A DNA stretch of 64,000 nucleotides from Methanolobus mangrovi. Lineage in GTDB: Archaea > Halobacteriota > Methanosarcinia > Methanosarcinales > Methanosarcinaceae. Positions 3,030 through 59,015 of this stretch are shown here, in pieces. The translations under genes were made by a program, and so were the position numbers. The stretch's first letter is position 1. Every line of letters starts with the position of its first letter. A model generated the notes under the pieces. It did not search any database and was not told where the DNA came from. It worked only from the letters and a program-made list of their open reading frames with translations. The stretch is taken from positions 2,523,934-2,587,933 of the forward strand of contig NZ_CP133594.1 of the NCBI RefSeq assembly GCF_031312535.1, read 5' to 3'.

Positions 3030-4289
<1,260 letters not shown>

Positions 4290-4381: not shown

Positions 4382-4384
4382 ACT

Positions 4385-4663: not shown

Positions 4664-4693
4664 CTTTATCTCACCTGAATTATATGATAATCT

Positions 4694-7738: not shown

Positions 7739-7759
7739 AGTTACCGCTTACTACCTGCC

Positions 7760-7771
7760 AATATATAAAAA
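7760..7771 (-). promoter_or_regulatory. Box A (TATA) promoter of hpt
   Basis: The minus strand reads TTTTTATATATT here, a near-ideal archaeal box A, with the hpt ATG about 22-25 bases downstream. The same T-run serves as the terminator tail of the upstream chlID operon (see the neighbouring entry). Confidence 0.6.
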
Positions 7772-7800
7772 CAGACCGTTGGGGGGAAACCCTCACGGTC
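7765..7800 (-). terminator. Terminator of the chlI-chlD operon
   Basis: Minus-strand stem GACCGT (7800-7795) with ACGGTC (7779-7774), strengthened by an inner G-run/C-run pairing, overlaps the stop codon of the VWA gene and is followed by GTTTTTATATATT. The stem and T-run are clear. Confidence 0.65.
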
Positions 7801-9385: not shown

Positions 9386-9392
9386 ACCTCTC

Positions 9393-10514
9393 TTATATAT
9401 TTCCGTCTACAACAGCCCTTAGCTGGTCCACACTGAACTCTTCTTCTTCAAATGGCTTCTTACGCATTCTGTGGGGGAGGACCATCTCAGATGCCTCGAT
9501 GATGTCATCGTTGGTAATGCGTTCTCTGCCTTCGTAGGCTGCATTTGTACGGGCTGCCCGCTCTATCATAATATCTGCACGGTGTCCGTCCACATTGAAA
9601 GCGATACAAATTTCTGCAATTGTGCGCAGATTTTCTCTTGTACTGGACACTCTCGGAAGCAGTTGCATAGCCTTTACTATTTTTGAGCGCAGTTTTTCCT
9701 GCTCAGCTTCGTAATCACGTATGAATTGTTTTGGATCATCATTGAATCCGTTTCGTCGTTCTACAATCTCGATACGCTGTTCAACATCATAGATTCCGGT
9801 GACCTCTACCTGCAAAGCTATTCTGTCAAGCAGTTGTGGGCGAAGTTCTCCTTCCTCCGGGTTCATACTTCCTACAATAATGAAATTTGCAGGATGGCTG
9901 ACACTAACACCTTCACGCTCAACAGTGTTCACGTTCATAGCTGCAGCATCAAGAAGTGCGTCAACTACAAAGTCATCCAGCAGGTTTATCTCATCAACAT
10001 AAAGAATTCCACGGTTTGCCTGTGCAAGGATGCCAGGGTCAAATGCCTGCACACCCTGGCGCACAGCTTTTTCAATATCCAGACTACCGACAACCCTGTC
10101 TTCAGTAGCGCCCACAGGAAGATCTACTACCTTTGTCTGGCGTTTATTAACGTTAAGTGTTCCCTTTCTCTTCTTTTCTGTACATTCCCAACAGAACTTG
10201 TCAGGGTCTTTAGGGTCACAATTGAATTTGCATCCTTCTACAACTTCAATCTCTGGCAGTACCTCTGCTAAACCTCTTACCGCCGTGGATTTAGCAGTAC
10301 CTTTCTGTCCACGTATCAGTACTCCTCCAATCGAAGGATTGATTGTATTCAGTATGAGCGCTCTTAGCATTTTTTCCTGCCCTACTATGGCAGATATGGG
10401 GTAGAGCACTCTTTCTGTCCTTGTGGCCTTGCGGGCAATGTCTTCCAGATATTGTGAAGGAGCTTCCGCGGTTTTTGGAACTTCTTTTATTGTCCCGGTT
10501 ATACTTGAACTCAT
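9393..10514 (-). CDS. Magnesium/cobalt chelatase AAA+ ATPase subunit (ChlI/BchI-like)
   Basis: 373 residues, the usual ChlI length. Walker A is [15 protein letters not shown] (about 69-83), Walker B is [20 protein letters not shown], and the sensor and arginine-finger regions ([20 protein letters not shown]) are intact. The CxxxxxxxxxxxxCxxC insert ([15 protein letters not shown] region) resembles the cysteine-bearing insert of many archaeal and cyanobacterial ChlI proteins. It should form a hexamer that remodels the VWA subunit encoded just downstream. Most likely part of an aerobic-like cobaltochelatase for corrinoid synthesis, essential for methyl transfer in methanogens; the metal is an inference. 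Confidence 0.88.
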
Positions 10515-10566
10515 ATTATCGCCTTTCCAGCATGAAATCTTGCATATTGTTACTTGTCAGTTGAAT

Positions 10567-10974
10567 TTACAGATACCTTAGTATGATCGCAGAAATAAGA
10601 GCCAGGAATAAGAGTACCAGCCCACCGGCGAAAAAGGCAAACACTATTTTGATATGCACATTCTTTTCTGCGTTCTTTGCAAGTGCGTTAAGCTCATACA
10701 AGGAAAATGAAGAACTCAACAGGAAAAGAATAGACGATAACAGCAACAATGATCCTGCTACCAGGATATACTCTGCTGTCCATGTAAGGGCCTTTGCATT
10801 CAATAGGTCAAGAAAAAAGTCTTTCCCATGTCTTACATATGATGCCGTTATCCATAGCATAGTGTAAGCAATCTCTGCGGCGCCCATTATTACCGAGCAG
10901 ATCGCAGTTGTCATAAGCGTGACCATCATCCCTATATCAGGGATGTCAATATCGATTTTCCATTCATCACCCAC
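10567..10974 (-). CDS. Uncharacterised small membrane protein
   Basis: 135 residues beginning with GTG, with AAGGTGA 5-9 bases upstream. Three hydrophobic segments are evident at about residues 15-45, 68-92 and 108-134. No conserved catalytic motif is visible and I do not recognise the family. It lies upstream of chlI on the same strand with 52 bases between them, so it may be the first gene of the chelatase operon, but a separate promoter cannot be excluded. Confidence 0.7.
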   Translation of the reverse strand: MGDEWKIDIDIPDIGMMVTLMTTAICSVIMGAAEIAYTMLWITASYVRHGKDFFLDLLNAKALTWTAEYILVAGSLLLLSSILFLLSSSFSLYELNALAKNAEKNVHIKIVFAFFAGGLVLLFLALISAIILRYL

Positions 10975-11084
10975 AATTTCACCTTGAGAGCCTGTTTTGT
11001 ACGGTATACCCTCTAATTGAAGGTACAGAATATATGTGCTAAAATAATAAAAATATACCCATTAAAATATTTAGCGGTGTAAAT

Positions 11085-11125
11085 GGTAATAAAAAGAAAA
11101 GCCAGCAGAACTATCAGGTAGTTCT
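11085..11125 (-). terminator. Hairpin terminator of cofD
   Basis: A perfect 7-bp stem, AGAACTA (11125-11119) with TAGTTCT (11113-11107), 5-base loop, overlaps the cofD stop codon and is followed on the minus strand by GGCTTTTCTTTTTATT. Confidence 0.7.
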
Positions 11126-12044
11126 ACATTAATTCAAATTGTTCATGTATGAGTCGGGATAGATCTCGGCTTATGTCCACTGACTTCATCAATGTATCTG
11201 CCTTCGATACACTGCAACCAGTTACTTCAAACCTTTTCTCTTCGATCGGGTCACGCTCATCGAGTATGATGTGGTCGAGAAAATCAGAATAGTAGGAGGC
11301 AACGCCATAGGATGAAACTTCTATTCCTCTTGCAGCCATAAGTTTACCAGCCGGTCCGCTCACAGGTTCGTTTCCAATTATAGGACTTACTGCAATGACA
11401 TTTTTATCACAGAGTATGTCACGCATTCCCGGAAGTTCAATGATAGGGCCGATACTTGTTATGGGGTTACTTGGGCCGATAAGCACTTCATCCTCATTCT
11501 CAAGTGCAGCCAGAACAGCAGGAGATATAGATGCTTTTTCTATGCCTTCCTGACATACTCCAAGAACCTCCGGTTCGCCATGTTTTCCAACCCAGAAATC
11601 CTGGAAATGCATTTTTCCTTCTGGTGTGCTTATCATGGAGGATACCGGGTCATCGGACATGGGCAGAACATTTGCTTTCACTCCGAATGACTTGCAAAGT
11701 TGAGTGATGGCTTCTGTAAGTGTCATTCCACTACGGAGGAGGTCAGATCGCATGATATGGGTTGCGCGGTCAAGGTCTCCCAGCATCATAACCTCATTGT
11801 GTCCAAGAGCTTTCATGGCTTCATGGGTTCTGTAAGTGTCACCTTTGATCCCCCACCAGCGGGAGCTGTCTATCTTGCCCGAGAACAGGTATAGTACAGT
11901 GTCAATGTCGGGGGTGATCAGGTTTCCTGATATCCATACATCCTCTGCCGTATTGACCACGACAGTGATCTCTTCTTCCGGTATAACTTCACGAAGGCCG
12001 TTCAATAGTTTGGGAGTGCCTGTGCCACCTGAGAAAATTATCAT
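11124..12044 (-). CDS. cofD: 2-phospho-L-lactate transferase CofD
   Basis: 306 residues. CofD joins the lactyl/enolpyruvyl-diphosphoguanosine donor to the deazaflavin Fo, forming F420-0, the hydride carrier of methanogenesis. The N-terminal signature FSGGTGTPKLLNGL and the Fo/GDP-binding segments MMLGDLDRATHIMRSDLLR, MSDDPVSSMI and IGPSNPITSIGPI are all present. It is divergent from the HD-domain gene; the 60-base gap holds promoters for both genes and an inverted repeat around a TATA-like element. A strong hairpin terminator closes it. Confidence 0.95.
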   Translation of the reverse strand: MIIFSGGTGTPKLLNGLREVIPEEEITVVVNTAEDVWISGNLITPDIDTVLYLFSGKIDSSRWWGIKGDTYRTHEAMKALGHNEVMMLGDLDRATHIMRSDLLRSGMTLTEAITQLCKSFGVKANVLPMSDDPVSSMISTPEGKMHFQDFWVGKHGEPEVLGVCQEGIEKASISPAVLAALENEDEVLIGPSNPITSIGPIIELPGMRDILCDKNVIAVSPIIGNEPVSGPAGKLMAARGIEVSSYGVASYYSDFLDHIILDERDPIEEKRFEVTGCSVSKADTLMKSVDISRDLSRLIHEQFELM

Positions 12045-12072
12045 ATTATTGCTCTCTTCCTGTTTATCGGAA

Positions 12073-12090
12073 CGTCATTATAAGATGACG
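12073..12090. promoter_or_regulatory. Inverted repeat enclosing a TATA element, cofD/HD divergent promoter
   Basis: CGTCAT (12073-12078) and ATGACG (12085-12090) are a perfect 6-bp inverted repeat with TATAAG exactly in between. The element lies about 25 bases before the ATG of the HD gene, the expected place for its box A, and on the other side about 30 bases from the cofD ATG. A protein bound to the repeat would mask the TATA element. Operator function is inferred. Confidence 0.4.
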
Positions 12091-12104
12091 CATATTTAAA
12101 ATAT

Positions 12105-13307
12105 ATGAAAGTCATCCGTGATCCGATTCATGGTTATATTGAGCTTGACACTCTCACGTTATCACTTATAGATTCACCGCAGATACAACGGCTGAGACGA
12201 ATAAGCCAGCTTGGGCTGTCAAATCTCGTGTATCCCGGAGCAAACCATACTCGTTTTGAACATTCCCTTGGCGTGATGCATCTTGCCAGCATGCTGACAG
12301 AAAAGATCGATTCTGTGACAGATGAGGAAAAAGAGGAGCTTAGGGTTGCGGCTCTTCTTCACGATGTGGGACATGGTCCTTTTTCGCACGTTACTGAAAA
12401 TATTACCAAATACTATACGAGGCAACGGCATGAGGACGTCAGGGATATACTGAAAAAAGGTGAACTCGGGGAGATCTTAAAAGAACATGGTTTGAATCCT
12501 GCAACCATCGAGGACCACATTCAGGGAAAGACCGATCTCGGTAAGATACTCAACAGTGAGATAGATGTGGACAGGATGGACTATCTGGTGCGGGATTCGC
12601 ATTATACGGGTGTTGCCTTCGGTCTTGTGGACCATGTCAGACTCATCAATGAGATGAAGTTCTATGAAAACAAACTCGTTGTCACCGCAGGCGGTGTCAA
12701 GGCCGCGGAATCACTTCTTGTATCAAGGTTCCTGATGCATCCTTCAGTATATTACCATCACGTTTCAAGGATAGCTGAAACCATGTTCACAAGGGCAGTG
12801 GATGATCTAATCCAGAAGAAGTCATTAAATGCTTTTGACCTGCGAAAAATGGATGATTCCAGACTTTTTGAAATGATACGTAATGATGATGGTTATGCAG
12901 GGGAACTGGCAGAGAGGCTGGATAACAGAAAACTCTACAAGAGGGCATTGTATGTAGGCTTTGATGAAGTTGGTGAAGGCGTTTTGAAACATCGGAAAAA
13001 CATAGAACGGGTGGAAGCCGAGATTGCGGAAGATGTTGGCATTGAACCGGAAAGCGTTCTCATAGATATTCCAAAGGATCCGGAAATAGCTGAAATGAAG
13101 GCACTGGTGAAGGTAAATGGCAGAATGTTACGCCTGGATGAAGTTTCACATGTGGTTGCAACACTTGAGCAGGCTCACCGTGATAACTGGAAGATGGGAG
13201 TTTACACTCCGAAGGAGTACAGGGAAGAAGTATCCAAAGCTGCAAGGACCTTCTTTGATGTAAAAAGAACAACAAAACAATTCCGTCTGAGTGAAATAGA
13301 AGGGTAA
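12105..13307 (+). CDS. HD-domain phosphohydrolase (dNTPase-like)
   Basis: 400 residues of the YdhJ/SAMHD1-like HD family. The metal-binding residues are visible as TRFEHSLGVMHLA (H53), LLHDVGHGPFSH (H86, D87, H90) and a downstream SEIDVDRMDYLVRDSHYTG aspartate. The first 50 residues, IRDPIHGYIELD through RLRRISQLG, are typical of this group. Relatives cleave dNTPs to nucleosides and triphosphate, although the substrate in methanogens is not established. The start lies right after a TATA-like element, suggesting a nearly leaderless mRNA. It opens a rightward cluster with the LpdD-like and ubiX genes. Confidence 0.88.
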   Translation: MKVIRDPIHGYIELDTLTLSLIDSPQIQRLRRISQLGLSNLVYPGANHTRFEHSLGVMHLASMLTEKIDSVTDEEKEELRVAALLHDVGHGPFSHVTENITKYYTRQRHEDVRDILKKGELGEILKEHGLNPATIEDHIQGKTDLGKILNSEIDVDRMDYLVRDSHYTGVAFGLVDHVRLINEMKFYENKLVVTAGGVKAAESLLVSRFLMHPSVYYHHVSRIAETMFTRAVDDLIQKKSLNAFDLRKMDDSRLFEMIRNDDGYAGELAERLDNRKLYKRALYVGFDEVGEGVLKHRKNIERVEAEIAEDVGIEPESVLIDIPKDPEIAEMKALVKVNGRMLRLDEVSHVVATLEQAHRDNWKMGVYTPKEYREEVSKAARTFFDVKRTTKQFRLSEIEG

Positions 13308-45752: not shown

Positions 45753-48527
45753 ATGCTTGAAGATGAGTATCAGCTTGATTTTTTTTCTGAGAACGGATTT
45801 GTTCGTAAACAGTGCTCTAAATGTGGAAGTCATTTCTGGACTCGTGATCTTGAAAGAGCGACATGTGGGGATGCTCCATGTGATCCGTACTCTTTTATTG
45901 GAAACCCTGTTTTTAAGAAAAAGTTCGACCTTGCAGAAATGAGAGAATATTATCTTAATTTCTTCGAGGAGAGGGGTCATACAAGACTCGAAAGGTATCC
46001 TGTAGTTGCAAGATGGAGAGATGACATTTATCTGACAATTGCTTCAATTGCTGATTTTCAGCCATTTGTGACTTCTGGGGAGGTTCCGCCACCTGCGAAT
46101 CCATTGACGATCTCCCAGCCATGTATACGCCTGTCTGACCTTGATGCTGTAGGCCGAAGCGGTCGCCATTTGACCACTTTTGAAATGATGGCCCATCATG
46201 CTTTCAATAATCCTGGTGATGAAATATACTGGAAGGACCGCACTATGGAATTGTGTGATGAATTCCTTAATTCACTTGGAGCAGACCCCATGGCTGTTAC
46301 TTACAAAGAGGAACCATGGGCTGGTGGCGGTAATGCCGGACCATGTGTTGAAGTTCTCATTGGCGGCCTTGAAGTTGGAACCCTTGTGTTCATGAACATG
46401 CAGCAATCAGAAGACGGCGACATTGTGATCAAAGGTGAAAACTATCGCAAGATGGACAACTACATTGTGGACACAGGTTATGGTCTTGAAAGATTGGTGT
46501 GGGCATCAAAAGGTTCGCCTACAATATATGATGCAGTTTTCCCTGGCATTGTAAATGAAATAATGGATCTTGCAGGTGTTAAACACGAACTTGACGATTC
46601 CGAATACGCCAACATCCTCTCTCAGAACGCCCGTCTGGCAGGTCTTATGGATGTGAGCGAAAAAGCCAATCTTTTTGAGCTAAGGAAACAGGTTGCTTCC
46701 AGCATTGGAACAACAGTCGAGAAACTGTCCTCTATTATGGAACCTGTTGAGGGTGTCTATGCGATAACCGATCACACCCGCTGCCTTACATTCATGCTTG
46801 CAGACGGTATCATTCCTTCCAACGTGAAGGCTGGTTATCTTGCAAGACTGGTGCTTCGCCGTACCCTGAGGATGATGAAGGATATGGGAATAACCATACC
46901 CTTATCCGAGATCGTAAAAATGCACATCATGAATCTTCCTGAGTATCCGGAATTCCAGGAAAAGTTCAATGTAATAGATGACATACTTGCTCATGAGGAA
47001 CAGAAGTTTGCTGATACGCTGGAACGTGGAAAGCGTATGATCCAGAAATCCGCTAAACATTACAAGGATGCAGGGGAAAAGATTCCTCTTGAAACTCTGG
47101 TAGAGATGTACGACAGCCACGGAATTCCTCCTGAGATATCAAAACAGGCAGCTTCTGAAGTCGGTGTGGATGTGGATCTTCCTGATAACTTCTATTCTCT
47201 TGTTGCTGAAGGGCATAGCAAAGCAGAACCAAAAGTAGTGAAAGTATTCCCTTACTCGGACAGGGTTGAAAAACTGCCAAAGACAAAGAAGTTGTTCTAT
47301 GATGAGCCTACGAGAATGAACTTTGAGGCTGTAGTACTGGATATCTTTGACAATCATATTGTGCTTGACAGTACTCTCTTCTACCCTGAGGGCGGCGGAC
47401 AGCCAGCAGACCACGGTACCATCGTCGTTGAGGATGTTGTCCTTAATGTTATAGATGTACAGGCTGTGAATGGCGTGGTCGTACATATCATAGAGGATAT
47501 GGAGGATGAACTCCATCTTCGAAAGGGTGACATGGTTCTGGGTAAAGTAAACGAAGAACGTCGTATGTCCCATGCATGCCATCACACCGCAACTCACATT
47601 GTAAACGATGCGGCACGTAAGGTCCTTGGCGACCATGTATGGCAGGCAGGTGCCCAGAAATTTGTGGACAAAGCCCGTCTCGATATATCTCACTACAAGC
47701 GCATCTCCCAGGAAGAACTGAATCGTATAGAACTCATTGCCAATCGTACTGTGATGGATAACCAGCGCGTGACTGCCGAATGGATGGAAAGGGTAGACGC
47801 CGAGAAGAAATATGGTTTTGGTCTTTATCAGGGAGGCGTACCTCCTGGAAATATTATCCGTGTGCTGAAAGTAGCAGATGATATAGAGGCATGTGGAGGT
47901 ACTCACTGTGTTAGTACTGGACTTGTCGGTCCTATCAAGATGCTGAAAACAGAACGCATTCAGGACGGTGTAGAACGTATTGAGTATTCCGCGGGTCTTG
48001 CAGCAGTCAGGGCAATGCAGGAAATGGAATCCTATCTCAGCCAGTCAGCAGATGCATTGCGTGTCAGGCCGGAACATCTTCCATCTACCATTGATCGTTT
48101 CTTCAATGAATGGAAAGAGTTCAAAAAAGAGAACCAGAGGCTGAAAGACGAGCTTGCGCACGTTCATGTCAGTCAGATGGCAAATGAAGCTGCCATCATA
48201 GGTGGCCTTCGCCTTGTTGCAAAGGTTATTCCAAATGCTGATATCGACGAACTTGTGAAAATCGCAGGTGAGCTGACCACTAATAAAGACACGGTAGTTC
48301 TTCTGGCAAGTGATTTTGAAGGTGTCAAGATCGTAGGCGCTGCAGGTGATGATGCATTGAAGGCCGGAGCGGATGCTGGCAAGATCGTCAGGGTAATGTC
48401 TGCAGTTGTTGGTGGCGGCGGCGGCGGTAAGCCTGGTATGGCCCGTGGCGGCGGTATTGATGTTAGCAAGATAGATGAGGCCCTTGAAAGCGGTCGCAAC
48501 CTGCTTGAAGAACAGATAAGCAACTAA
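45753..48527 (+). CDS. alaS: Alanyl-tRNA synthetase
   Basis: 924 residues, the archaeal AlaRS length. An archaea-type N-terminal extension with a zinc-like cysteine set (QCSKCGSHFWTRD, then CGDAPC) precedes the class II core (ERYPVVARWRDDIYLTIASI split over motifs 1-2; GYGLERLVWASKG motif 3). The editing domain has HACHHTATHIVND and CGGTHCVSTG, which bind zinc. The C-terminal dimerisation/C-Ala region is at 780-924, ending with a glycine-rich VGGGGGGKPGMARGGGID. A KaiC/GvpD-like gene follows after 26 bases, so read-through is plausible. Confidence 0.97.
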   Translation: MLEDEYQLDFFSENGFVRKQCSKCGSHFWTRDLERATCGDAPCDPYSFIGNPVFKKKFDLAEMREYYLNFFEERGHTRLERYPVVARWRDDIYLTIASIADFQPFVTSGEVPPPANPLTISQPCIRLSDLDAVGRSGRHLTTFEMMAHHAFNNPGDEIYWKDRTMELCDEFLNSLGADPMAVTYKEEPWAGGGNAGPCVEVLIGGLEVGTLVFMNMQQSEDGDIVIKGENYRKMDNYIVDTGYGLERLVWASKGSPTIYDAVFPGIVNEIMDLAGVKHELDDSEYANILSQNARLAGLMDVSEKANLFELRKQVASSIGTTVEKLSSIMEPVEGVYAITDHTRCLTFMLADGIIPSNVKAGYLARLVLRRTLRMMKDMGITIPLSEIVKMHIMNLPEYPEFQEKFNVIDDILAHEEQKFADTLERGKRMIQKSAKHYKDAGEKIPLETLVEMYDSHGIPPEISKQAASEVGVDVDLPDNFYSLVAEGHSKAEPKVVKVFPYSDRVEKLPKTKKLFYDEPTRMNFEAVVLDIFDNHIVLDSTLFYPEGGGQPADHGTIVVEDVVLNVIDVQAVNGVVVHIIEDMEDELHLRKGDMVLGKVNEERRMSHACHHTATHIVNDAARKVLGDHVWQAGAQKFVDKARLDISHYKRISQEELNRIELIANRTVMDNQRVTAEWMERVDAEKKYGFGLYQGGVPPGNIIRVLKVADDIEACGGTHCVSTGLVGPIKMLKTERIQDGVERIEYSAGLAAVRAMQEMESYLSQSADALRVRPEHLPSTIDRFFNEWKEFKKENQRLKDELAHVHVSQMANEAAIIGGLRLVAKVIPNADIDELVKIAGELTTNKDTVVLLASDFEGVKIVGAAGDDALKAGADAGKIVRVMSAVVGGGGGGKPGMARGGGIDVSKIDEALESGRNLLEEQISN

Positions 48528-48553: not shown

Positions 48554-49894
48554 ATGATACCTGGTGAGGTCAAGGAGTTCTTCTCATCCCAGTTTGGCAA
48601 GTCTCTTCTTGTCAAAGGGAAACCGGGGACGGGAAAGACGACATTTGTCTTTGGTATACTCGATGAAGTGTGTTCAGAAGGCAATTGTGTCTATATCTCG
48701 CCACGTATCGATAAATCTTCAGAGTATGGGAAATATCCCTGGATAGAGGGCGATTTCAACAACAATGAGGATTTCCTCCGGATGCTTGCATCCCGAATAA
48801 AAGTGATATGGGAGTCCAGTGAATCCAAGCCAATAATCGTTGTGGATTCCATTGATTCACTTAGTATCGCTACAACGCGATCTGCAAACTGGGAAGATAA
48901 CAAGTTCGAGCTTGAGCGTTTGCTCTTTGATTTTTCCAGAAAGGTAAATGCAGATCTCATTATGATTACCGAGCAAACGGGTGTAACTTCTCTTGACTAT
49001 CTGGTAGATGGTGTTGTTTCCCTTGAGATCAGGGATATATCAGATAATGATATCAGAAAGGTTAATTTGCTCAAGATACGCGGAGTGGAGCTATCACAGT
49101 CAAGATATCCTTTTACTCTCGATGGTGGTAAGTTCAATAGCTTCAAACCATTCACAGTATCATACCCGGAACAAACCCAGGTTCCACAACCATTGCCTGA
49201 TCCTATTGAAAGTAAGATCTCAACAGGTATCCGTGATTTTGATGCGATACTTGGAGGCGGTTACCAGAAAGGAAGCTTTAATCTATTCGAGATCACAAGT
49301 GGTGTAGGTGATTCATTTTACAGTTTACTTTTACCGACATTCATTAATCACCTGAACATGGGCCGCGGCCTTCTCAGTATGCCTACTGAAGGTACAAGTG
49401 TTGAAACCGAAAAGCGTATGATATTTCCTTTTACAGGTGACAATCACTTCCATGGACAGTTCGTTGGATTTGAGATACGTGACCTGAAAGGTAGGATACC
49501 TACCTACATTGAACCATTTTCAGGAAATGTTTACAAAGATATGGATGTGTTCCACAAGGCCAAGAATGAGATGATGCGGCAATATGGCTCTCCGATCCTT
49601 GATTATATGGGTCTTGACAGTATGGAATACAATTATGGGTGGGAGAACATTGGTTCAATCATCGGGCAGATGGCATCTATTACAAAGACGACTGAGAATG
49701 TTGTTCTTGCCGTTACGAAACATGGGCAGAGAATAACAGAAACTGTTGCTCATATGGCTACAACCCACTGGAAATTTGAAAACGTTGACAAAACTCTTGT
49801 TATGTATGGTGTCGTACCTAAAACCGGTATTTTTGCAGTTCAGATGGAATTTGTTCATGGTTATCCGCAGGTTCGTCTTACTCCTATGAAATAA
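48554..49894 (+). CDS. Two-lobe KaiC/GvpD-like RecA-superfamily ATPase
   Basis: 446 residues made of two RecA-like lobes. The first has an intact Walker A, VKGKPGTGKTTFVFGIL (22-30), and Walker B PIIVVDSIDSL (D98). The second starts at STGIRDFDAILGGGYQKG but its P-loop position reads FEITSGVGDSFYSLLLP: the G-K-T is missing, so only the first lobe should hydrolyse ATP. This resembles the GvpD P-loop family and KaiC. GAGG precedes the ATG by 8 bases. It opens a three-gene rightward set with two receiver-domain genes, next to the archaellum operon. Confidence 0.8.
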   Translation: MIPGEVKEFFSSQFGKSLLVKGKPGTGKTTFVFGILDEVCSEGNCVYISPRIDKSSEYGKYPWIEGDFNNNEDFLRMLASRIKVIWESSESKPIIVVDSIDSLSIATTRSANWEDNKFELERLLFDFSRKVNADLIMITEQTGVTSLDYLVDGVVSLEIRDISDNDIRKVNLLKIRGVELSQSRYPFTLDGGKFNSFKPFTVSYPEQTQVPQPLPDPIESKISTGIRDFDAILGGGYQKGSFNLFEITSGVGDSFYSLLLPTFINHLNMGRGLLSMPTEGTSVETEKRMIFPFTGDNHFHGQFVGFEIRDLKGRIPTYIEPFSGNVYKDMDVFHKAKNEMMRQYGSPILDYMGLDSMEYNYGWENIGSIIGQMASITKTTENVVLAVTKHGQRITETVAHMATTHWKFENVDKTLVMYGVVPKTGIFAVQMEFVHGYPQVRLTPMK

Positions 49895-49988
49895 CTATTT
49901 TAGTGCAGCAAGTTCATTATCTTCCCAAACATTAATAAGAAAATAAAACTAATAATATTTACTAAACAAAATTAAAAGGTACTTGTCA

Positions 49989-51044
49989 ATGAATGTTCAA
50001 ACGCAGGAAATCCTTACAGCCATCAGGAAAGAACTGTCCAATAAGAACGCATTATTCTTTGCTCCGGTTGACAGTTTCATAGAGCGTCTGGTATACTTTT
50101 ATGTGTCTTATATACTAAAAGAAGATTCTGACCGGGCAGTAGTGTGGTTGTGTCTGAACGCTTCCAGGGATAAGATACTTACTCGTTTTGAAGATTTTGG
50201 GTTTGATATAGGGACTGAAGGCAAAATGTTCTTCATTGATATCGATGCACCCGGTAAACAGCATTATGAAGATACCTTGTATTGCAATTCAGTTGCCGAC
50301 TATACAAAGATGGCTTCGCATATATCTAACATCTTTCAAAGTAATCCGCATTCTCTGCTCATCATAGATAATATGAATGTGCTGGCAAGTGACACAATAC
50401 AGGTAGTCGAAAATTTCATCAAGTTCATTGAAAAGAAGGTAGCTGAGTCTGATGGGAGTATTCTGTCGATGCTTTCCAGGAACATCCTGCCTTCTGAAAT
50501 AGAAGTCCTTATAACTTCTTTCTTTGAAGTTGTTATAGAGATTACCAATGTAGGGGAGATACACACTGAGATTGGTCTGAAGGATTTTGATTTCCGTTAC
50601 TCTGTTGAGGATGGTTCGATCGAATTCGAACCGATACAGAAGAAGATTAAGCGGGATCGACTAAAAATCCTGATTGTTGATGATGAGCCGGATATTCCTG
50701 AATTGTTGAAGCTCTCTCTTATTAGCGAACCTTATGATTTCATTGTGGCACACAATGGCGAAGAAGCAATAGAACTTACCTTAAAAGAACTCCCTGACCT
50801 TATTCTTCTTGATATCATGATGCCTGATATGGATGGTTATGAGGTTGTAGAGCATCTTAAAAAGAGTAAGGCAGCAAGCGACATTCCTGTAATAATGATT
50901 TCTGCCAAGACTGCTATTGAGGACAAGGTAAAGGGAATGGAACTTGGTATTGATGATTATATTTCCAAACCATTTGACAAGCGAGAAGTCAAGGCGAGGA
51001 TTAAGATGGTGATGAGGCGTTTGGGTTGGGTCGAAGAGGAATAA
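49989..51044 (+). CDS. Pseudo-RecA domain fused to a response-regulator receiver
   Basis: 351 residues from the ATG at 49989. Residues 1-215 follow the KaiC/RAD55 fold order (ALFFAPVDSFIERLVYFYVS, then SLLIIDNMNVLAS at the Walker B position), but the P-loop is absent, so this lobe is probably a binding or sensing domain. Residues 224-351 are a full receiver: ILIVDDEPD, phosphoacceptor D275 in LLDIMMPDMDGYE, and K327 in YISKPFD. No DNA-binding output is present. The gene lies between the KaiC-like ATPase and a stand-alone receiver, which suggests one pathway. Confidence 0.8.
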   Translation: MNVQTQEILTAIRKELSNKNALFFAPVDSFIERLVYFYVSYILKEDSDRAVVWLCLNASRDKILTRFEDFGFDIGTEGKMFFIDIDAPGKQHYEDTLYCNSVADYTKMASHISNIFQSNPHSLLIIDNMNVLASDTIQVVENFIKFIEKKVAESDGSILSMLSRNILPSEIEVLITSFFEVVIEITNVGEIHTEIGLKDFDFRYSVEDGSIEFEPIQKKIKRDRLKILIVDDEPDIPELLKLSLISEPYDFIVAHNGEEAIELTLKELPDLILLDIMMPDMDGYEVVEHLKKSKAASDIPVIMISAKTAIEDKVKGMELGIDDYISKPFDKREVKARIKMVMRRLGWVEEE

Positions 51045-51110
51045 TTATATAGTTCTGTAATATATTCTCTACAGAATATTATTTTATATCTTTTTCAGGA
51101 GCTGTAAATT

Positions 51111-51485
51111 ATGTGTCCCAAAGTTATGGTTGTAGATGATGAGCCAGATACCATTGACCTCATAAAATTGATCTTGGAGGCTGAAGACATCGAAGTTGTC
51201 GGAGCAAAAAGTGGTTTAGAATGTCTTGAGTTCATTGCTACTGAAAGACCTGACGCCATTTTGCTTGACATCATGATGCCTGATATGAATGGATGGGAAA
51301 CTTTTCACAAAATAAAGGAAAAAGAGCCATGTTTGCCTGTGGCTATGCTTACTGTGAAAAGCCAGGAATTTGACAAGATGCTTGGTCTGCATGTTTTAAA
51401 AGCAGATGATTATATCACCAAACCTTTTAGCAGGAAAGAACTTATTAAAAGAACAAAGGAATTGCTTGAAATGCAATTTCAATGA
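51111..51485 (+). CDS. Stand-alone receiver protein (CheY-like)
   Basis: 124 residues, a single receiver domain: acidic pocket VVDDEP (D10, E11), phosphoacceptor D53 in LLDIMMPDMNGWE, T81, and K104 in YITKPFS. CAGGAGCT lies 9 bases before the ATG. In archaea such proteins can be chemotaxis CheY acting through CheF on the archaellum, or partners of other kinases; no CheA, CheF or histidine kinase gene is in the window. It overlaps the opposed methyltransferase by 7 bases tail to tail. Confidence 0.88.
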   Translation: MCPKVMVVDDEPDTIDLIKLILEAEDIEVVGAKSGLECLEFIATERPDAILLDIMMPDMNGWETFHKIKEKEPCLPVAMLTVKSQEFDKMLGLHVLKADDYITKPFSRKELIKRTKELLEMQFQ

Positions 51486-52510
51486 TACAGCACTTCGCAC
51501 AAAATTGCATCATTTCCTTTTAGGAAAAGATGTGCCTTCCTTTCACCATCAAGTTCTTTTTCCAGTTCATTGCGTGTTTCCCAGTATCTTTCAGGTTCTA
51601 TTGATGCCCTGATAATAACTGTTCCAAAAGAATTCTGTTTCAGGTATGAGTTTATCTCTGTGGTATCAAACTCCATGACCTGTAGGACCTTATAACTGTT
51701 CTTGAACAATTTGCATTCCAATGGCTGATAAGAGCTTACTAAGACTCTTTTTTCATCGATCTCAAATATGTTGATGTTATTTGCTGGCTCATTGAAGTGT
51801 AATGCCAGTTGCTCAAGAAGACCTGCTTTTGTGACACATTCCTCTGGCTCATATGCATATATTCCGGGTTTATCCGTTCTACTCGCATTTATTTTCTCGT
51901 CACTTTTTCTTATGATGGCGCTGCCTGGTAATGCAATCGCAGAAACATCAGCTTTTTTCAGCTTACCAAAATAGAGATTCAGGCGATTTAGTTTGCCTTC
52001 AAGGGACATATATTCCTTTTCACAATCAAAAGGTATCTTTTCCGGAGATATCTGAGGCGGGGCTTCGAATGCAAAGTTAGAACATTTTTCAGCATATGCT
52101 TGCATAACTTTAGGTATGGGTGGGCTCAGATTATCGATGTTTCTTTCTTTTTCAGTAGGGGCTCTTGCAGGGTCTGAGAATACCACATCAAGTTTTGGCA
52201 ATTGTGCTATTACCTCTGGTGAAAGCGCATCTCCGGTGATGAACTCTATGTTGCTGACACCCATTATCTGTGCATTCTTTTTAGCGTAGGCTATTTTCTT
52301 TGGGTCTATCTCTATTGCATAAACATGGTCACACCATTTTGCAAAATATATTGCCTGTCCGCCGATACCGCAACTGATGTCGGCTATCACCTTACATTGT
52401 AATCTCTTTGCCCTGTACTCTGCAACCGGTTCAGGAGTTGCAAATCGAATTCCGTCCTTATCGGATTTCATTTCAGTTTTGAATTGTTTCTTGCGTGCCA
52501 AATGGATCAA
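51479..52510 (-). CDS. Class I SAM-dependent methyltransferase with THUMP-like C terminus
   Basis: Up to 343 residues, starting with TTG; an ATG 14 codons downstream (52468) is an alternative. The SAM-binding motif is VIADISCGIGGQAIYFAKW, with acidic IEIDPKK and the VVFSDPARAP catalytic loop. Residues 230-343 resemble the THUMP-like extension found in archaeal and bacterial putative RNA methylases. Target not known, RNA likely. Divergent from the archaellum operon and convergent with the CheY-like gene. Confidence 0.82.
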   Translation of the reverse strand: MIHLARKKQFKTEMKSDKDGIRFATPEPVAEYRAKRLQCKVIADISCGIGGQAIYFAKWCDHVYAIEIDPKKIAYAKKNAQIMGVSNIEFITGDALSPEVIAQLPKLDVVFSDPARAPTEKERNIDNLSPPIPKVMQAYAEKCSNFAFEAPPQISPEKIPFDCEKEYMSLEGKLNRLNLYFGKLKKADVSAIALPGSAIIRKSDEKINASRTDKPGIYAYEPEECVTKAGLLEQLALHFNEPANNINIFEIDEKRVLVSSYQPLECKLFKNSYKVLQVMEFDTTEINSYLKQNSFGTVIIRASIEPERYWETRNELEKELDGERKAHLFLKGNDAILCEVLYH

Positions 52511-52671: not shown

Positions 52672-53961
52672 ATGGCCGGATTTAGCGATAAGATAAAAAA
52701 GATAACTTCTGTTCTTTCCAAGAAGGATAAAAAAAAAGGGGCTGATTCTCCATTCGATTCAGTTGCTCCTTCATTCCTACAGGGTATTCCTGATCTTGGT
52801 TCACTTCCTGATTTATCCGCTGGATTGCCTCCGGTACCGCCGGGTAGCCCTCCAGCTGGTCCGCCTGGTTTTCAAAATGCTCCGGGTGCTCCTTCATTTC
52901 CTCCGGGTATGGCTCCTCCAGGCGTCTCTCCGGGAGGTATATCTCAACAATCTTCTGCAAACAATGAGATGCTGGAAGAGAACCGGAAAAAGATAAAAGA
53001 TGTTGAAGGCAAAATTTCAAAGGCCGATGTAGCTCTCAACCTGGTTCAGAAGGAAAATGAAGAGATCAAAAAGACAGTCGATAAAATAGACCAGAGTGTT
53101 CTAGAATTATTATCCCTGTATGAGATCGTTTCCAATCAGGTTAACCCTTTCGTTGGTGATGATGTTGCTTCTCGTGCCACAATAGAGAGATTTGATAAAA
53201 CTGATAAGAGGATCACAGAATTGGGTGACATGCTGGTCCTCATGAAGAACGAATATGACAGCACAGTTCAGAAATTGAGCCTGCCACAGGGTATTTCATC
53301 AGAGGCAGAGTCAAGGATGCATAATATCGAGTCCAAAATGGATGCATTTGCAGATGCAATGATGATGATGCATGAAAGCATCGAACAATTGTCTTCCAAA
53401 ACAGAGCAATTGTTTTCCAGAACCAGTGCTCTTGACCAGAATGTCATTGACCTGGCCGAAACAACCACAAATATATCTTCACGTCTTGATATTTTTGAGA
53501 AACAATCAGCGGTCATCAATAGTGTAAATGCTGCTGAAAATACTGATGAAAATGAAGAGTCAAATGACAGTGAACTTGTTGTGCTGCCAAAAAAATCTTC
53601 CATTCCAATGGTGCGGCTGGAGTCCATAAAAGGTGATCCAACCAGTGTTGTTGTCCTGCTTAACTGGATCGAGTTTTTGATGGAGCGTGTGGGAAGGAAC
53701 AATCTTATGGATGCTCTTGATTATTATATGGACATCGGGTGGATAAGTGAGGATGTTATGTCTGAGATAATGGCTTATGCCCGGGGAATAGATTATTATG
53801 TGGAAAAGCCCACATGGCGTCTTCTTCCAGAGGATCACACTAAATCTCTGCTTTTTATAGAAAGGCTGTCAGGCCGCAAGATCGACAGGAATATGCTCAG
53901 TTCCATAGACAGGGAAATGGCAAAGGTGAAGCACGGTCTGGAGGAACTCTATGGGATTTGA
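52672..53961 (+). CDS. Archaellum accessory protein ArlC/D/E (FlaC/D/E family)
   Basis: 429 residues. A short N terminus is followed by a proline/glycine-rich linker (PPVPPGSPPAGPPG, about 55-95), a coiled coil (about 100-290) and the C-terminal FlaD/E domain beginning VRLESIKGDPTSVVVLLNWI and ending MAKVKHGLEELYGI. In euryarchaea the ArlC, D and E proteins form the cytoplasmic ring around the archaellum motor and connect to CheF/CheY. The single fused gene here replaces separate arlC, arlD and arlE. It overlaps arlF by 11 bases. Confidence 0.9.
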   Translation: MAGFSDKIKKITSVLSKKDKKKGADSPFDSVAPSFLQGIPDLGSLPDLSAGLPPVPPGSPPAGPPGFQNAPGAPSFPPGMAPPGVSPGGISQQSSANNEMLEENRKKIKDVEGKISKADVALNLVQKENEEIKKTVDKIDQSVLELLSLYEIVSNQVNPFVGDDVASRATIERFDKTDKRITELGDMLVLMKNEYDSTVQKLSLPQGISSEAESRMHNIESKMDAFADAMMMMHESIEQLSSKTEQLFSRTSALDQNVIDLAETTTNISSRLDIFEKQSAVINSVNAAENTDENEESNDSELVVLPKKSSIPMVRLESIKGDPTSVVVLLNWIEFLMERVGRNNLMDALDYYMDIGWISEDVMSEIMAYARGIDYYVEKPTWRLLPEDHTKSLLFIERLSGRKIDRNMLSSIDREMAKVKHGLEELYGI

Positions 53962-54382
53962 GTTATCAGTAGTCACAGTTATTTTCTTCATATCTGCAGT
54001 ACTTTTAGGAACCTTCTCGTACACAATGTTGAGTACTTCTAATGAGGTTGTAGTGGATGCTTCAGTAGAACAGCATAAGATGCAAAGTATTCGGCTTCAG
54101 ACAGACATAGAGGTGGATGACTCCATTCCACAGACTTCCGGATCCAATTACAATCTTACTCTAATTCTATCTAATACTGGTAGTGAGACAATTCGCTTTG
54201 ATGAATTGAATGTGCTGGTGGACGGAACTCTGAAATCATACTCTTATAGTGACGTTGCTGCTACGTGGACTCCTGCAGAGACAAGGAACCTGACAGTAAC
54301 AGGTCTTTACGGTCTTGGAATACATCGTGTTAAGGTCGTAACTTCAAATGGTGTCTCAGCTTATGATTCATATTTGGTTTGA
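53951..54382 (+). CDS. arlF: Archaellum stator protein ArlF
   Basis: 143 residues. A single N-terminal membrane helix (LSVVTVIFFISAVLLGTFSY) leads to an extracytoplasmic beta-rich domain. ArlF binds the S-layer and with ArlG anchors the motor. GAGGAA 8 bases before the ATG lies inside the overlapping end of the arlE gene. Similar length and layout to its downstream neighbour arlG. Confidence 0.85.
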   Translation: MGFELSVVTVIFFISAVLLGTFSYTMLSTSNEVVVDASVEQHKMQSIRLQTDIEVDDSIPQTSGSNYNLTLILSNTGSETIRFDELNVLVDGTLKSYSYSDVAATWTPAETRNLTVTGLYGLGIHRVKVVTSNGVSAYDSYLV

Positions 54383-54457
54383 CTGGAATGGTAGGTTAAT
54401 ATGCCAATAATTATATATTAATAGACAGTTATATTTCTATTCGGACTGGCAGAAAAA

Positions 54458-54964
54458 ATGAAGAGCATGCTAACTACAGACAGAAAGAACCTGCTGAAGG
54501 ACACAAGTGCTGACACCGCTATCACGCACATGATATTCTTCATAGCAGCGATAATACTAGCTATCAGCGTAGTTGCTCTTATATCGGCTGATGTCCAGTC
54601 TATGGTTGCTTCATCGGGTTCAAGTAGTAAATTACTTTCAGAGCAGATGAAAACTGATATCACAATAGTGAATGACCCTGAGATAATTCCTTACGATGGC
54701 GCCAGTAAAAAATACACATTTTATGCAAAGAACACCGGTAAAACAGAATTAGTGCCGGAATACGTGACCGTTCTTGTGGATGGTATCATGATAAGACCTG
54801 ATGACATTGATATTGATCTGATGGATGGTGATGTCATATGGAGGCCTGGCGATATCCTTTCCCTTAATGTCACTACCAATCCCTCACCTCTTGACTCCGG
54901 TGATCACAGGATACTTGTTGCAGCTGAAAATGGTAAATCAGGTGCTATGAGCTTTAAAACGTAA
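54458..54964 (+). CDS. arlG: Archaellum stator protein ArlG
   Basis: 168 residues. N-terminal hydrophobic helix (MIFFIAAIILAISVVALISA, about 25-45) followed by an extracytoplasmic domain with the repeating beta pattern (YTFYAKNTGKTELVPEYVTV). ArlG forms a filament capped by ArlF. The 75-base gap from arlF contains an AT-rich stretch (ATTATATATTAATAG) that may act as an internal promoter. Confidence 0.85.
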   Translation: MKSMLTTDRKNLLKDTSADTAITHMIFFIAAIILAISVVALISADVQSMVASSGSSSKLLSEQMKTDITIVNDPEIIPYDGASKKYTFYAKNTGKTELVPEYVTVLVDGIMIRPDDIDIDLMDGDVIWRPGDILSLNVTTNPSPLDSGDHRILVAAENGKSGAMSFKT

Positions 54965-54977
54965 TTCAGAGGTAAAA

Positions 54978-55673
54978 ATGGCAAAAATTAATGTATTTGA
55001 GATTCCAAGGGATGATCTTAACGCAAAATTAGGAGGTGGCTTTCCTGCCGGTTCACTGGTAGTGATCGAGGGTGGTAGCGGTGGTGGAAAGAGCTCCATC
55101 AGCCAGAGACTTTCTTTTGGTTTGAACGAGAATGACGTAAGTGTTACTTTAGTTTCCACTCAGATGACAACAAAAGGCTTTATCAACCAAATGTACTCTC
55201 TGGATTACCCGATAGCTCCTTTCCTTTTGAATGGTCTTCTATTGTACATTCCGGTAATTCCACTGGTGCAGGCTGCAAAATCACGTTCCGATTTCATTGA
55301 ACGATTAATGGCGGCAGAAGAGCTTTTCGAGAAGAATGTTATAATCATTGATACTCTTTCCTCCCTGATAAAATACAGTGTGAATATAGAGAAAAGTCTA
55401 GAACTGATTTCATTTTTCAAAAAGCTCAATGGTATGGGGAAAGTGATCATACTGACAATAGAGTCTAACCAGCTGAGTGAGGAGATTGCCTCTATGTTCC
55501 GTTCTTCCTGTGATGTTTACATTACTCTTAAATCAAAGCCACTGGGAAGTGAAGTCAAGAGAACTATTCTCGTAAACAAGTTTACGGGAGCCAAAGGCCC
55601 TGTAGGTCAAATGATAGGTTTCAGGATCGAACCAAGGGTTGGTCTTGTTGTCGAGATCGCTTCAGTATCATAA
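54978..55673 (+). CDS. arlH: Archaellum ATP-binding protein ArlH
   Basis: 231 residues, a RecA/KaiC-fold protein that binds ATP and regulates ArlI. The canonical Walker A is VVIEGGSGGGKSSISQRLSF (residues 28-47), and the Walker B strand is NVIIIDTLSSLIKYS. CAGAGGTA lies 5-8 bases before the ATG. It is the intact, expected KaiC-like member of the archaellum cluster, in contrast with the modified KaiC-like proteins further upstream. Confidence 0.95.
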   Translation: MAKINVFEIPRDDLNAKLGGGFPAGSLVVIEGGSGGGKSSISQRLSFGLNENDVSVTLVSTQMTTKGFINQMYSLDYPIAPFLLNGLLLYIPVIPLVQAAKSRSDFIERLMAAEELFEKNVIIIDTLSSLIKYSVNIEKSLELISFFKKLNGMGKVIILTIESNQLSEEIASMFRSSCDVYITLKSKPLGSEVKRTILVNKFTGAKGPVGQMIGFRIEPRVGLVVEIASVS

Positions 55674-55691
55674 GATCAAAAGAGTGGTTAG

Positions 55692-57350
55692 ATGGATCCG
55701 GAATTTCAAAAAGCTGTACAAAGAAACCCTCATCTTGGAATATATGTAAAGAAATTTATGCAGGAAACCGGAGCAGATGAACCCACTTTTATGGTGAGCC
55801 TTTCAAAAGATATTGACAAAGAAAATGTTAACATCATTCTTCCAGTGGGAGATCCTGTATTCGTTCATCTTTACGGGAGCTCCGAAATTGGTGAGGTCAA
55901 ATATTATGGAATAGAACCTTTACTCAACAACACTGAAAGAAAAAAATATGAAGCTGTTCTGGATATTATTCTTGAAAGATCATCCTATGAGCCTGTTCCT
56001 GAGTCTGAGGCTGATCTCAAGGAACTTATTACTAAGCTACTCAACGAAGCAATTGATATTGGTTCAGGTGGGAACGTCGAAGAAAAAGGAACCGGCAAGT
56101 TCAATATACTCCAAAAGCTGATGCCCATACAAAAAAAGGTTCCGATGACCCAGAGTGAGTACAACAAGATTCTCTATCACCTGGAAAGGGACATTATTGG
56201 TTCCGGGCCAATCGAACCCATTATCAGGGACCCTTATCTTGAAGATATCCACAGTATTGGCATTGATAATGTGTTCATCGTTCACAAAATATTCGATATG
56301 GTGAAGACTGACCTCACGTTCGGGGATGAGCAGGGACTGGATAACTGGCTGAGGAGCATGAGTGAGCGTATCGGTCGTCCTGTAAGTGATGCCCGCCCTA
56401 TCGCGGATGGTGCTCTTCCAGATGGTTCCCGTATCAATATTATTTACAGTCTGGATGTCAGTAAGCGTGGAAGCAGTTTTACCATGCGTAAGTTCAGTGA
56501 GGTGCCTGTGAGCATTATCCAGCTCATTACCTGGGGTGCACTGAGTGCGGAAATGGCAGCTTATATGTGGATGTGTCTTGAGAATGGTATGAGTATTTTC
56601 TTTAGTGGTGAGACTGCAAGCGGGAAAACAACGATGCTTAATGCATGTCTTGCTTTTGTAAATCCTAGATCTAAAGTATTCTCCGCCGAGGATACGGCTG
56701 AAGTCCAGCCACCGCAGCCTGTATGGCAGCAGCTGATAACTCGTGAGGAAGGTCCTATTGACTCAAGGGTAGATACTTTCGCCCTACTTAAGGCTGCACT
56801 TCGTTCAAGACCAAACTACATCATAGTTGGTGAAATTCGAGGAGCTGAAGGTAACGTAGCTTTCCAGGGTATGCAGACAGGACACCCTGTACTTGCAACA
56901 TTCCACGCATCTGCAGTTTCAAAGATGATACAGCGTCTCACAGCAGACCCTATCAACGTACCTGTCACGTTCATTGATAATCTGAACATTGCAATGATCC
57001 TGTCAGCTGTCTATCGTAAAGGTAAATTCCTGCGACGTGCCCTTGCAATTGAGGAGATTGAAGGTTATTACGAGGAGATTGGTGGTGTTGCCACAAGGGC
57101 TGTTTTCCAGTGGGAACCTGATACTGACAAGCATAAGTTCCGTGGTCTGAACAATAGTTACATCCTGGAAGACAAAATAGCTACAAAACTTGGTTATGAG
57201 GACAAGAGGATGATATATCAGGATCTTTTCCTCAGGGCAAGAATACTTGATGAAATGAAATCACGAGGTATCGAAGACTATTACGATGTTCTTGAGATCA
57301 TAGTCAACTTCTATAAACATGGTGTTGAAGGCCTTCCATTTACAATCTAG
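55692..57350 (+). CDS. arlI: Archaellum motor ATPase ArlI
   Basis: 552 residues. A type II/IV secretion-type hexameric ATPase that drives assembly and rotation. Walker A is FFSGETASGKTTMLNACLAF (about 303-322), Asp box SAEDTAEVQPP, Walker B VGEIRGAEGNVAFQGMQTGH with the His box HPVLATFHASAVSKM. The N-terminal 170 residues are the variable domain. Its stop is followed after two bases by a GTG, but the better arlJ start lies at 57360. Confidence 0.97.
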   Translation: MDPEFQKAVQRNPHLGIYVKKFMQETGADEPTFMVSLSKDIDKENVNIILPVGDPVFVHLYGSSEIGEVKYYGIEPLLNNTERKKYEAVLDIILERSSYEPVPESEADLKELITKLLNEAIDIGSGGNVEEKGTGKFNILQKLMPIQKKVPMTQSEYNKILYHLERDIIGSGPIEPIIRDPYLEDIHSIGIDNVFIVHKIFDMVKTDLTFGDEQGLDNWLRSMSERIGRPVSDARPIADGALPDGSRINIIYSLDVSKRGSSFTMRKFSEVPVSIIQLITWGALSAEMAAYMWMCLENGMSIFFSGETASGKTTMLNACLAFVNPRSKVFSAEDTAEVQPPQPVWQQLITREEGPIDSRVDTFALLKAALRSRPNYIIVGEIRGAEGNVAFQGMQTGHPVLATFHASAVSKMIQRLTADPINVPVTFIDNLNIAMILSAVYRKGKFLRRALAIEEIEGYYEEIGGVATRAVFQWEPDTDKHKFRGLNNSYILEDKIATKLGYEDKRMIYQDLFLRARILDEMKSRGIEDYYDVLEIIVNFYKHGVEGLPFTI

Positions 57351-57359
57351 GTGAGCTTC

Positions 57360-59015
57360 ATGAGTTATGAAAAGGCATTCAAGAATATTGGCATGGAACC
57401 TAAGGCTTATGCCAAGAAGTTTGCCTTACCTATAATATCATTCGGTTTTATTTTTTCAATAATTCTTATGGTAGCGTTTCCTGCACTTTTCACGGGTACT
57501 ACCAAGTATATACCAGCATTAATTCCGGTTATATGTATTATCTTTGCCTTATCATATCCTTTGACAATTCTTGCTGCCAAGGCATCACGTATAGACAATA
57601 ATATGCACTACTATATCACTCAGATGGGTTCAATTGCAACAGCGGAAACCCCAAGGATAGATATAGTACGTATCGTTTCAGAAAATGAGGATTACCAGGA
57701 ACTTGCCGAGGAAACAAAGAAGATCTACGATCTTGTAACCGTATGGCATCTTAGTCTTGCTGATGCATGTCGCTTTATTTCTAAAAGAACTCCTTCTATT
57801 ATATTCGAGGACTTCCTTGACAGATTCGCACATGCACTTCAGTCGGGAGAAGATGTTAAAACCTTCCTTTTTGCAGAGCAGAGTGTGGTAATGAATGAGT
57901 ATGAATCAATGTATTTCGGTGCCCTTTATGTTGTTGAGATCATTAAGGAACTATTCGTGTCCCTTGTGATGTCCCTGATATTCATGGCATCATTTGCTGT
58001 CATCATGCCGGTCATTACAGGTATGAATGCAGAACTTCTCATGAGTATAGTCGTGCTCGTCTTCCTTGTAACAGATCTTGTAATGGTAATGTTCACAAAA
58101 AGCAAAATACCAAAAGATCCTGCATGGAGTCGTTCTTCCAATATGACTGAGAACAAGTTAAAGTTATATCGTTCAGTACCAATTTCCATAGCTGGCTGCA
58201 TAATTGTGTTTATCGCAGTTTCACTTTATGGGAAGATAGAAACTTCAATTGCTGTGGCTATGGTTTTAACTCCTCTCGTTTATACAGGCCATGTATCAAG
58301 GTCAATAGAGAAGAGTATTCGTAGGAAAGATGAGAACTTCCCTGCATTCATCCGTTCTCTTGGAAGTTCTGCCGGTGCAAGGGGTGGTGTCATTGATGAT
58401 GCACTGAAAGCCCTGAGAGCGCATGACTTCGGTCCTCTGACAAAAGATGTGAACAACCTTTACAAGATGCTTGTCACCAGAATCGACAAATTTGGCTCAT
58501 GGGAATATTTCTCAGCTAACACCGGAAGTAATCTGATACAGCGTTTTTCTGTAATGTTTGTGCAGGCAACTAATCTGGGTGGCCAGCCAGAGATCATCGG
58601 GGATATAATAGCAACGAACTTCCACAAGATAGTAACTCTCAGGAAAAAGAGATCACAGTCTGCCGGAAGTCTTGTCGGTGTCCTGTATGGCCTTACAGGC
58701 GGTATTGGTTTTACCATGTATATCTCACTTGGTGTGGTGGGACTTATGCAGGATATGTTCTCGGCTGTGGAAATGCCTCCGGGGATGTCCATGGGAATGG
58801 TGCTGTATACGGATGTCGGCAGCATTGAGACACTTTCAAACATGGTTATGTTGATAATGGTTGGTCATTCCCTGATGTCCGCTCTTCTTATCAGGATAGT
58901 GGATGGAGGGCATATGTTGAGTGCCACCACTGACTTTGTGATAATGGTATGGATATCCGGGGTAAGTGCAGTCGTCACTATGTCAGGTGTATCTTCGTTA
59001 CTGAATCTAAGCTAA
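57360..59015 (+). CDS. arlJ: Archaellum membrane platform protein ArlJ
   Basis: 551 residues from the ATG at 57360, which has GGTGA 5 bases upstream; a GTG at 57351 is inside that site. Polytopic membrane protein of the T2SSF/TadC type: membrane helices near 20-40, 45-65, 215-240, 250-275, 285-310 and several at the C terminus, with two large cytoplasmic loops. It is the membrane anchor on which ArlI acts. Last gene of the archaellum operon; a bidirectional terminator follows. Confidence 0.95.
   Translation: MSYEKAFKNIGMEPKAYAKKFALPIISFGFIFSIILMVAFPALFTGTTKYIPALIPVICIIFALSYPLTILAAKASRIDNNMHYYITQMGSIATAETPRIDIVRIVSENEDYQELAEETKKIYDLVTVWHLSLADACRFISKRTPSIIFEDFLDRFAHALQSGEDVKTFLFAEQSVVMNEYESMYFGALYVVEIIKELFVSLVMSLIFMASFAVIMPVITGMNAELLMSIVVLVFLVTDLVMVMFTKSKIPKDPAWSRSSNMTENKLKLYRSVPISIAGCIIVFIAVSLYGKIETSIAVAMVLTPLVYTGHVSRSIEKSIRRKDENFPAFIRSLGSSAGARGGVIDDALKALRAHDFGPLTKDVNNLYKMLVTRIDKFGSWEYFSANTGSNLIQRFSVMFVQATNLGGQPEIIGDIIATNFHKIVTLRKKRSQSAGSLVGVLYGLTGGIGFTMYISLGVVGLMQDMFSAVEMPPGMSMGMVLYTDVGSIETLSNMVMLIMVGHSLMSALLIRIVDGGHMLSATTDFVIMVWISGVSAVVTMSGVSSLLNLS

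Follow-up and report, generated by a model that had tools for sequence, protein, structure and literature searches.

The DNA that we analysed (the window) is a stretch of 64,000 nucleotides of Methanolobus mangrovi (NZ_CP133594.1, positions 2,523,934 to 2,587,933; genome G000 of genus g1 in our sample). Downstream of alaS (45753..48527, plus strand; identified from its sequence) it holds three consecutive plus-strand genes: gene 1 (48554..49894), coding for a GvpD-family, two-lobe protein of the KaiC superfamily (446 aa), gene 2 (49983..51044), coding for a KaiC-fold domain without a P-loop fused to a receiver (353 aa), and gene 3 (51111..51485), coding for a stand-alone receiver (124 aa). The archaellum operon, arlCDE(fused)-F-G-H-I-J (52672..59015, plus strand), begins 1187 bp after gene 3; arlCDE to arlH were assigned by matches to the FlaC, Fla_DE, flagellin and KaiC families, and arlI and arlJ from sequence and gene order. 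The open reading frames, their Pfam matches and the length of this gap bear out the three genes, motifs, order and spacing described in an earlier reading of the DNA from its letters (the sequence-only reading). That reading was right about the spacing but overlooked a methyltransferase gene in the gap (51479..52510, minus strand; Methyltransf_15, 50 bits), which is convergent to gene 3, overlaps its stop codon and is conserved at the same place in most linked loci. Given this intervening convergent gene, the three-gene set is most likely transcribed separately from the archaellum operon, and co-transcription of the two is unlikely.

About 26 kb past the end of the window the same genome encodes a 903-aa protein in which a long repetitive N-terminal part precedes FlaC and Fla_DE domains (L118:12192-14903), and a second Fla_DE protein is present in most genomes with an archaellum of the window's type. 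Some ArlI reading frames are 1126-1172 aa long versus the usual length of about 550 aa (L062:15345-18863, L092:738-4235 and L116:5940-9320); the one tested gave a weak match to an intein splicing domain (PF14890, E 5.5e-6, below cut-off), and an intein is likely, judged by sequence, in these long archaellum ATPases.

The gene 1 product matches both GvpD models of Pfam, GvpD_P-loop (PF07088; 74.4 bits, cut-off 24) and GvpD_bR2 (PF20440; 38.6 bits, cut-off 27.9), as well as KaiC (PF06745). Lobe 1 carries an intact Walker A motif, GKPGTGKT (residues 22-29; 48617..48640, plus strand), of which G22 and P24-T29 are invariant in 12 orthologues and residue 23 varies. Lobe 2 has EITSGVGDSFYS at the Walker A place, with K replaced by D, and this degenerate motif (TSGVGDS, residues 248-254; 49295..49315, plus strand) is invariant in the same 12 orthologues. 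The KaiC/GvpD identity given to gene 1 by the sequence-only reading thus stands, and the degenerate, invariant second Walker A sets it apart from the KaiC clock protein, which has two ATP-binding lobes. An AF2 model of gene 1 built from 12 sequences was unusable (pLDDT 44.7), and comparison of lobe 1 with lobe 2 by hhalign with shallow alignments gave no signal. Orthologues occur in 33 of 112 family genomes, the window's own counted (the others are 67-95% identical), only in genera g1, g2 and g14, and all 33 genomes have an archaellum. The wider gene 1 family is broad (84 of 393 sampled phylum genomes), reaching distant archaea, with unrelated neighbours in the loci inspected; families f5, f9 and f19 are among its carriers. 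In family f5, gene 1 homologues come after a winged-helix-type gene in 4/4 loci (Pfam test of one), an order reminiscent of gvpD-gvpE. Neither gvpE nor a gas vesicle gene was seen next to gene 1 among the window's reading frames from 44000 on, or in the relatives' loci.

The gene 2 reading frame starts at a TTG codon, with an in-frame ATG at 49989. Its receiver (PF00072, 103.8 bits at residues 229-341) contains D233, D234, D277 and K329, all invariant in 29 orthologues; Asp277 (50811..50813, plus strand) is the predicted phospho-acceptor. Residues 1-220 gave no significant match to Pfam sequence models. An AF2 model of this N-terminal domain (pLDDT 85.4) nevertheless has a KaiC fold (Foldseek to PDB KaiC, E about 4e-11), and a P-loop was found in 0/29 orthologues. 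Fold, missing P-loop and invariant receiver residues together confirm the pseudo-RecA-receiver fusion seen in the sequence-only reading, which is of a type already described as iKaiC-REC. In hhalign profile comparisons with shallow alignments the pseudo-RecA domain gave no signal with ArlH or with the lobes of gene 1, and a PDB profile search with it returned nothing meaningful, so a common origin of these KaiC-type domains rests on the fold and on distant homologues. Gene 2 is present in 65 of the 112 family genomes, with one close orthologue in each. In the 393-genome phylum sample close orthologues are confined to Methanosarcinaceae, and 7 other genomes have distant matches to the N-terminal domain, the receiver being missing in those inspected.

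In three loci of distant archaea (L245, L246 and L247) a stand-alone pseudo-RecA gene begins within the last part of the gene upstream, which encodes a KaiC ATPase in L246 (Pfam) and a KaiC-like protein in L245 (by eye). In the window's genome a gene for a 550-aa receiver protein is directly followed by a KaiC-like ATPase gene (L126:8380-10845), so receiver-KaiC gene pairs recur.

The gene 3 product is a receiver (99.9 bits in Pfam) that has the acidic pair, the predicted phospho-acceptor Asp53, the Thr and the Lys. Its orthologues were found beside gene 2 in genera g1, g2, g12 and g14 only.

To place the genes in the family, gene order was compared among the 112 genomes, from which 40 gene 2 loci were fetched. 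On every contig long enough to show it, alaS lies upstream of gene 2, and gene 2 keeps this neighbour in every genus; in some genera gene 1 and/or kinase genes are inserted between the two. In g1 (Methanolobus), g2, g9, g11, g12 and g14, the distance from the start of gene 2 to the arl operon downstream is about 1.5-4.3 kb. Gene 2 of g3, g7 (Methanococcoides) and g10 (most likely Methanohalophilus) also stands next to alaS; the gene after it codes for an aminoacyl-tRNA synthetase (by eye, valS), and arl lies elsewhere, next to leuB. The linkage to the archaellum on which the sequence-only reading was built therefore holds in the former genera and fails in the latter, and the constant linkages are those of gene 2 with alaS and of arl with leuB. 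The trio is not a fixed operon, since g12 has no gene 1 and in g14 genes for a kinase and a binding protein stand between genes 1 and 2. Genes 1 and 3 are missing from most archaellated genera, and both were seen only in genera with the joined gene 2-arl arrangement.

Gene 2 is present in 58/60 genomes with the window-type archaellum, a largely clade-level pattern, for which reason the Fisher test of gene 2 against archaellum (p = 2.6e-21) is not counted as evidence. Seven genomes (G001, G022, G031, G034, G038, G106 and G108) keep gene 2 with no window-type archaellum found; completeness is 94% or more for five of them, and the syntenic archaellum site is empty in G106. G071, which has the order alaS-methyltransferase-arl, has kept the archaellum and lost genes 2 and 3. 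Both the retention of gene 2 without an archaellum and its loss from archaellated G071 indicate that gene 2 is not an obligate part of the archaellum. Judged by sequence divergence, gene 2 appears to be under purifying selection in genomes without a detected archaellum, its dN/dS being about 0.09-0.10 in pairs with archaellum-less G031 and G034, as in archaellated pairs. The dedicated archaellum branch proposed by the sequence-only reading is not supported, either for gene 2, which is unlinked from arl in three genera and persists without a detected archaellum, or for the whole trio, of which only gene 1 behaves as if linked to the archaellum.

Gene 1 and the archaellum are jointly present or absent in 36/36 genomes of g1, g2 and g14: both are present in 33, both are absent in 3 (G001, G106 and G108, which lack gene 1 and have no strong archaellum match), and 0 are discordant. 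The three negative genomes are incomplete (76, 94 and 60%) and stand for no more than two or three independent events. G106 has kept gene 2 and the methyltransferase gene but lost what lay around them, namely gene 1, gene 3, the kinase gene and the archaellum, while the local contig of G001 retains the kinase, the binding protein, gene 2 and gene 3; the loss was therefore not one contiguous deletion. This joint presence and absence is only suggestive of a link between gene 1 and the archaellum, a link that the gene 2 fusion does not share.

The gene order could also mean that gene 2 codes for a general response regulator whose fixed place is near alaS, the nearness of gene 2 to arl being an inherited order without functional meaning. 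Such hitchhiking would account for the linkage to alaS in every genus, even where the archaellum lies elsewhere beside leuB, for the retention of gene 2 in G022, G031, G034, G038 and G106, for the similar dN/dS with and without an archaellum, and for the loss of gene 2 from archaellated G071. It fits less well with the presence of gene 2 in nearly all genomes with the window-type archaellum, although that pattern is largely one of clades, and with the restriction of genes 1 and 3 to genera with the joined arrangement. We regard it as a serious possibility, though one we lean against.

As to the input of gene 2, a kinase gene is found next to it in several relatives, for example at L098:4155-5996. 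The kinase of g14 and g2, encoded divergently to gene 2, has sCache, HAMP, PAS, HisKA and HATPase domains; in g11, a kinase gene alone is divergently adjacent to it. A phosphonate-binding-type (PhnD-type) protein, PF12974, is encoded beside the kinase in g14 and, by eye, in g2. Identity to a g14 query is 76% for another g14 kinase, 54-55% in g2 and 38% over the C-terminal part in g11. The adjacent sCache-HAMP-PAS kinase in relatives points to ordinary two-component input of gene 2. Together with the 15 genomes that carry the window-type archaellum and gene 2 and in which no CheW-domain protein was found, this non-CheA kinase makes the CheA-independent input suggested by the sequence-only reading plausible. 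In the window's genome, which that reading had suggested searching for a kinase and CheF, we found CheA, but neither a clear orthologue of the gene 2-adjacent kinase nor a match to full-length CheF (PF04283) at E<=0.001.

Full-length CheF was likewise not found in most genomes with the window-type archaellum. In the family it occurs in g13 (Methanosarcina), g4, and in G017 and G033, two genomes with a second, divergent archaellum whose ArlH is 28-31% identical to the window's. Two archaellum types thus exist in the family (for example L110 and L111), and in G017 and G033 full-length CheF and a che cluster accompany the divergent one. The window's genome also holds a cluster, conserved in relatives, that encodes ParA, two KaiC ATPases, a distant pseudo-RecA homologue, a V4R protein and a 195-aa CheF-like protein (L283, G000:C1:996000-1015900, at about 2941-12533). 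The match of the 195-aa protein to CheF is weak and partial (E 2e-4 for its relative), so 'no CheF' does not equal 'no adaptor', and the cluster is a candidate adaptor module for CheF-less archaella.

The sequence-only reading envisaged a non-CheA branch feeding the archaellum, with the ATPase pairing with the pseudo-RecA lobe. Spelled out as a motor model, such a branch would act directly on ArlCDE or ArlH, and the pseudo-RecA lobe would join an ATPase ring and replace CheF as the switch input. The scarcity of full-length CheF alongside this archaellum type, the CheW-less genomes and the fact that ArlH is itself a KaiC-fold protein are consistent with it. The window's genome, however, encodes CheA, CheB and CheY in a che cluster located away from the three-gene set, and the short CheF-like protein elsewhere in that genome is a better candidate adaptor. 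Moreover, gene 2 persists where the archaellum has been lost, the archaellum of G071 does without gene 2, and the N-terminal domain of gene 2 has no special similarity to ArlH in the profile comparison with shallow alignments. This motor model is possible, but we do not favour it and consider it improbable. Although gene 3 is a stand-alone receiver near the archaellum operon, we rejected it as the archaellum CheY of a CheA pathway with genes 1 and 2 as its modulators, a very remote prospect, because the NCBIfam models that it matches best are OmpR-type receivers, CheY_Halo scoring well below them, it is missing from many archaellated genera, and it lies outside the che cluster, where a CheY-like receiver gene stands with cheB and cheA (L249:19325-19711). 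By eye, that cluster (L249:7127-19711) also includes four CheC-like genes and, flanked by CheC and CheR, a 706-aa FtsA/PilM-like gene.

Our preferred reading, held tentatively and at somewhat less than an even chance, is that the locus is a two-component output module made of KaiC-fold parts, in which gene 1 most likely adjusts archaellum production. A sensor histidine kinase, like the one encoded back-to-back with gene 2 in relatives, usually beside a PhnD-type binding protein, would phosphorylate the gene 2 receiver, and phosphorylation would alter what the dead KaiC-fold domain binds. Gene 3 might be a further receiver that serves as a sink or relay for phosphate or competes as a partner. 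The gene 1 ATPase may have been recruited to the locus in some genera, and would most likely tune archaellum production and not the switching of motor rotation, for example by setting how much of a transcription activator is present, in the manner of GvpD and GvpE. GvpD lowers GvpE and requires its P-loop to do so (PMC4390858), and CirA, a KaiC homologue of Haloferax, affects the expression of archaellum and che genes (PMC13286277). This output module builds on the domain identities, their conservation, the kinase gene found next to gene 2 in relatives and the fact that gene 1 and the archaellum are kept or missing together; from these we infer phosphotransfer, a contact between the iKaiC domain and the ATPase, and an effect on the archaellum. 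Counting against it are the small number of events behind the archaellum-negative cases in the gene 1 genera, all of them in incomplete genomes, the window's genome having no clear kinase orthologue, the trio not being a fixed operon, and the wider gene 1 family standing beside unrelated genes in distant archaea.

A stronger version, in which a CheF-less archaellum is under the control of a pathway from the kinase through the iKaiC-REC protein to the GvpD-like ATPase and the chemotaxis system plays no part, is unlikely in our judgement. If it were true, some methanogens would swim under ordinary two-component control and not that of CheA/CheY. iKaiC-REC proteins had been catalogued without a function; with the relatives' kinase gene an input can now be tested, and with the GvpD-like ATPase, which is kept or missing together with the archaellum, so can an output. 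Archaella without full-length CheF, some of them in CheW-less genomes, raise the question of how their motor is regulated. New here are the family-wide gene order in 112 genomes, the link to a kinase and a binding protein, and the finding that gene 2 is independent of the archaellum, which gene 1 accompanies.

Among known systems, the CheY-CheF-ArlCDE switch, in which CheF connects phosphorylated CheY to ArlCDE, is similar in having a receiver protein near archaellum genes (PMC9126983); unlike there, no full-length CheF was found here and the che cluster lies elsewhere. Gene 1 resembles GvpD, the haloarchaeal gas vesicle regulator, in passing both GvpD models and keeping the P-loop, but differs from it in adjoining a response regulator and an archaellum operon without an adjacent gas vesicle gene, and in the conserved degenerate Walker A of its second lobe. 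BcsE of enterobacteria likewise has a predicted RecA/KaiC-like N-terminal domain and a receiver-like domain and acts via protein contacts (PMC7439463). Its receiver is degenerate, whereas that of gene 2 is intact, and is followed by a degenerate GGDEF domain that binds c-di-GMP (PMC7439463). The likeness to gene 2 may be taken as an analogy only. The closest counterpart is the iKaiC-REC response regulator, listed by Galperin and colleagues from six Methanosarcinaceae genera in a paper whose text makes no mention of CheF (PMC5847659). As in gene 2, an inactivated KaiC-like domain is followed by a C-terminal receiver (for example UniProt Q12U26), the listed genera overlap with ours (Methanolobus, Methanococcoides and Methanohalophilus included; PMC5847659), and in the protein itself nothing distinguishes gene 2 from the catalogued iKaiC-REC family.
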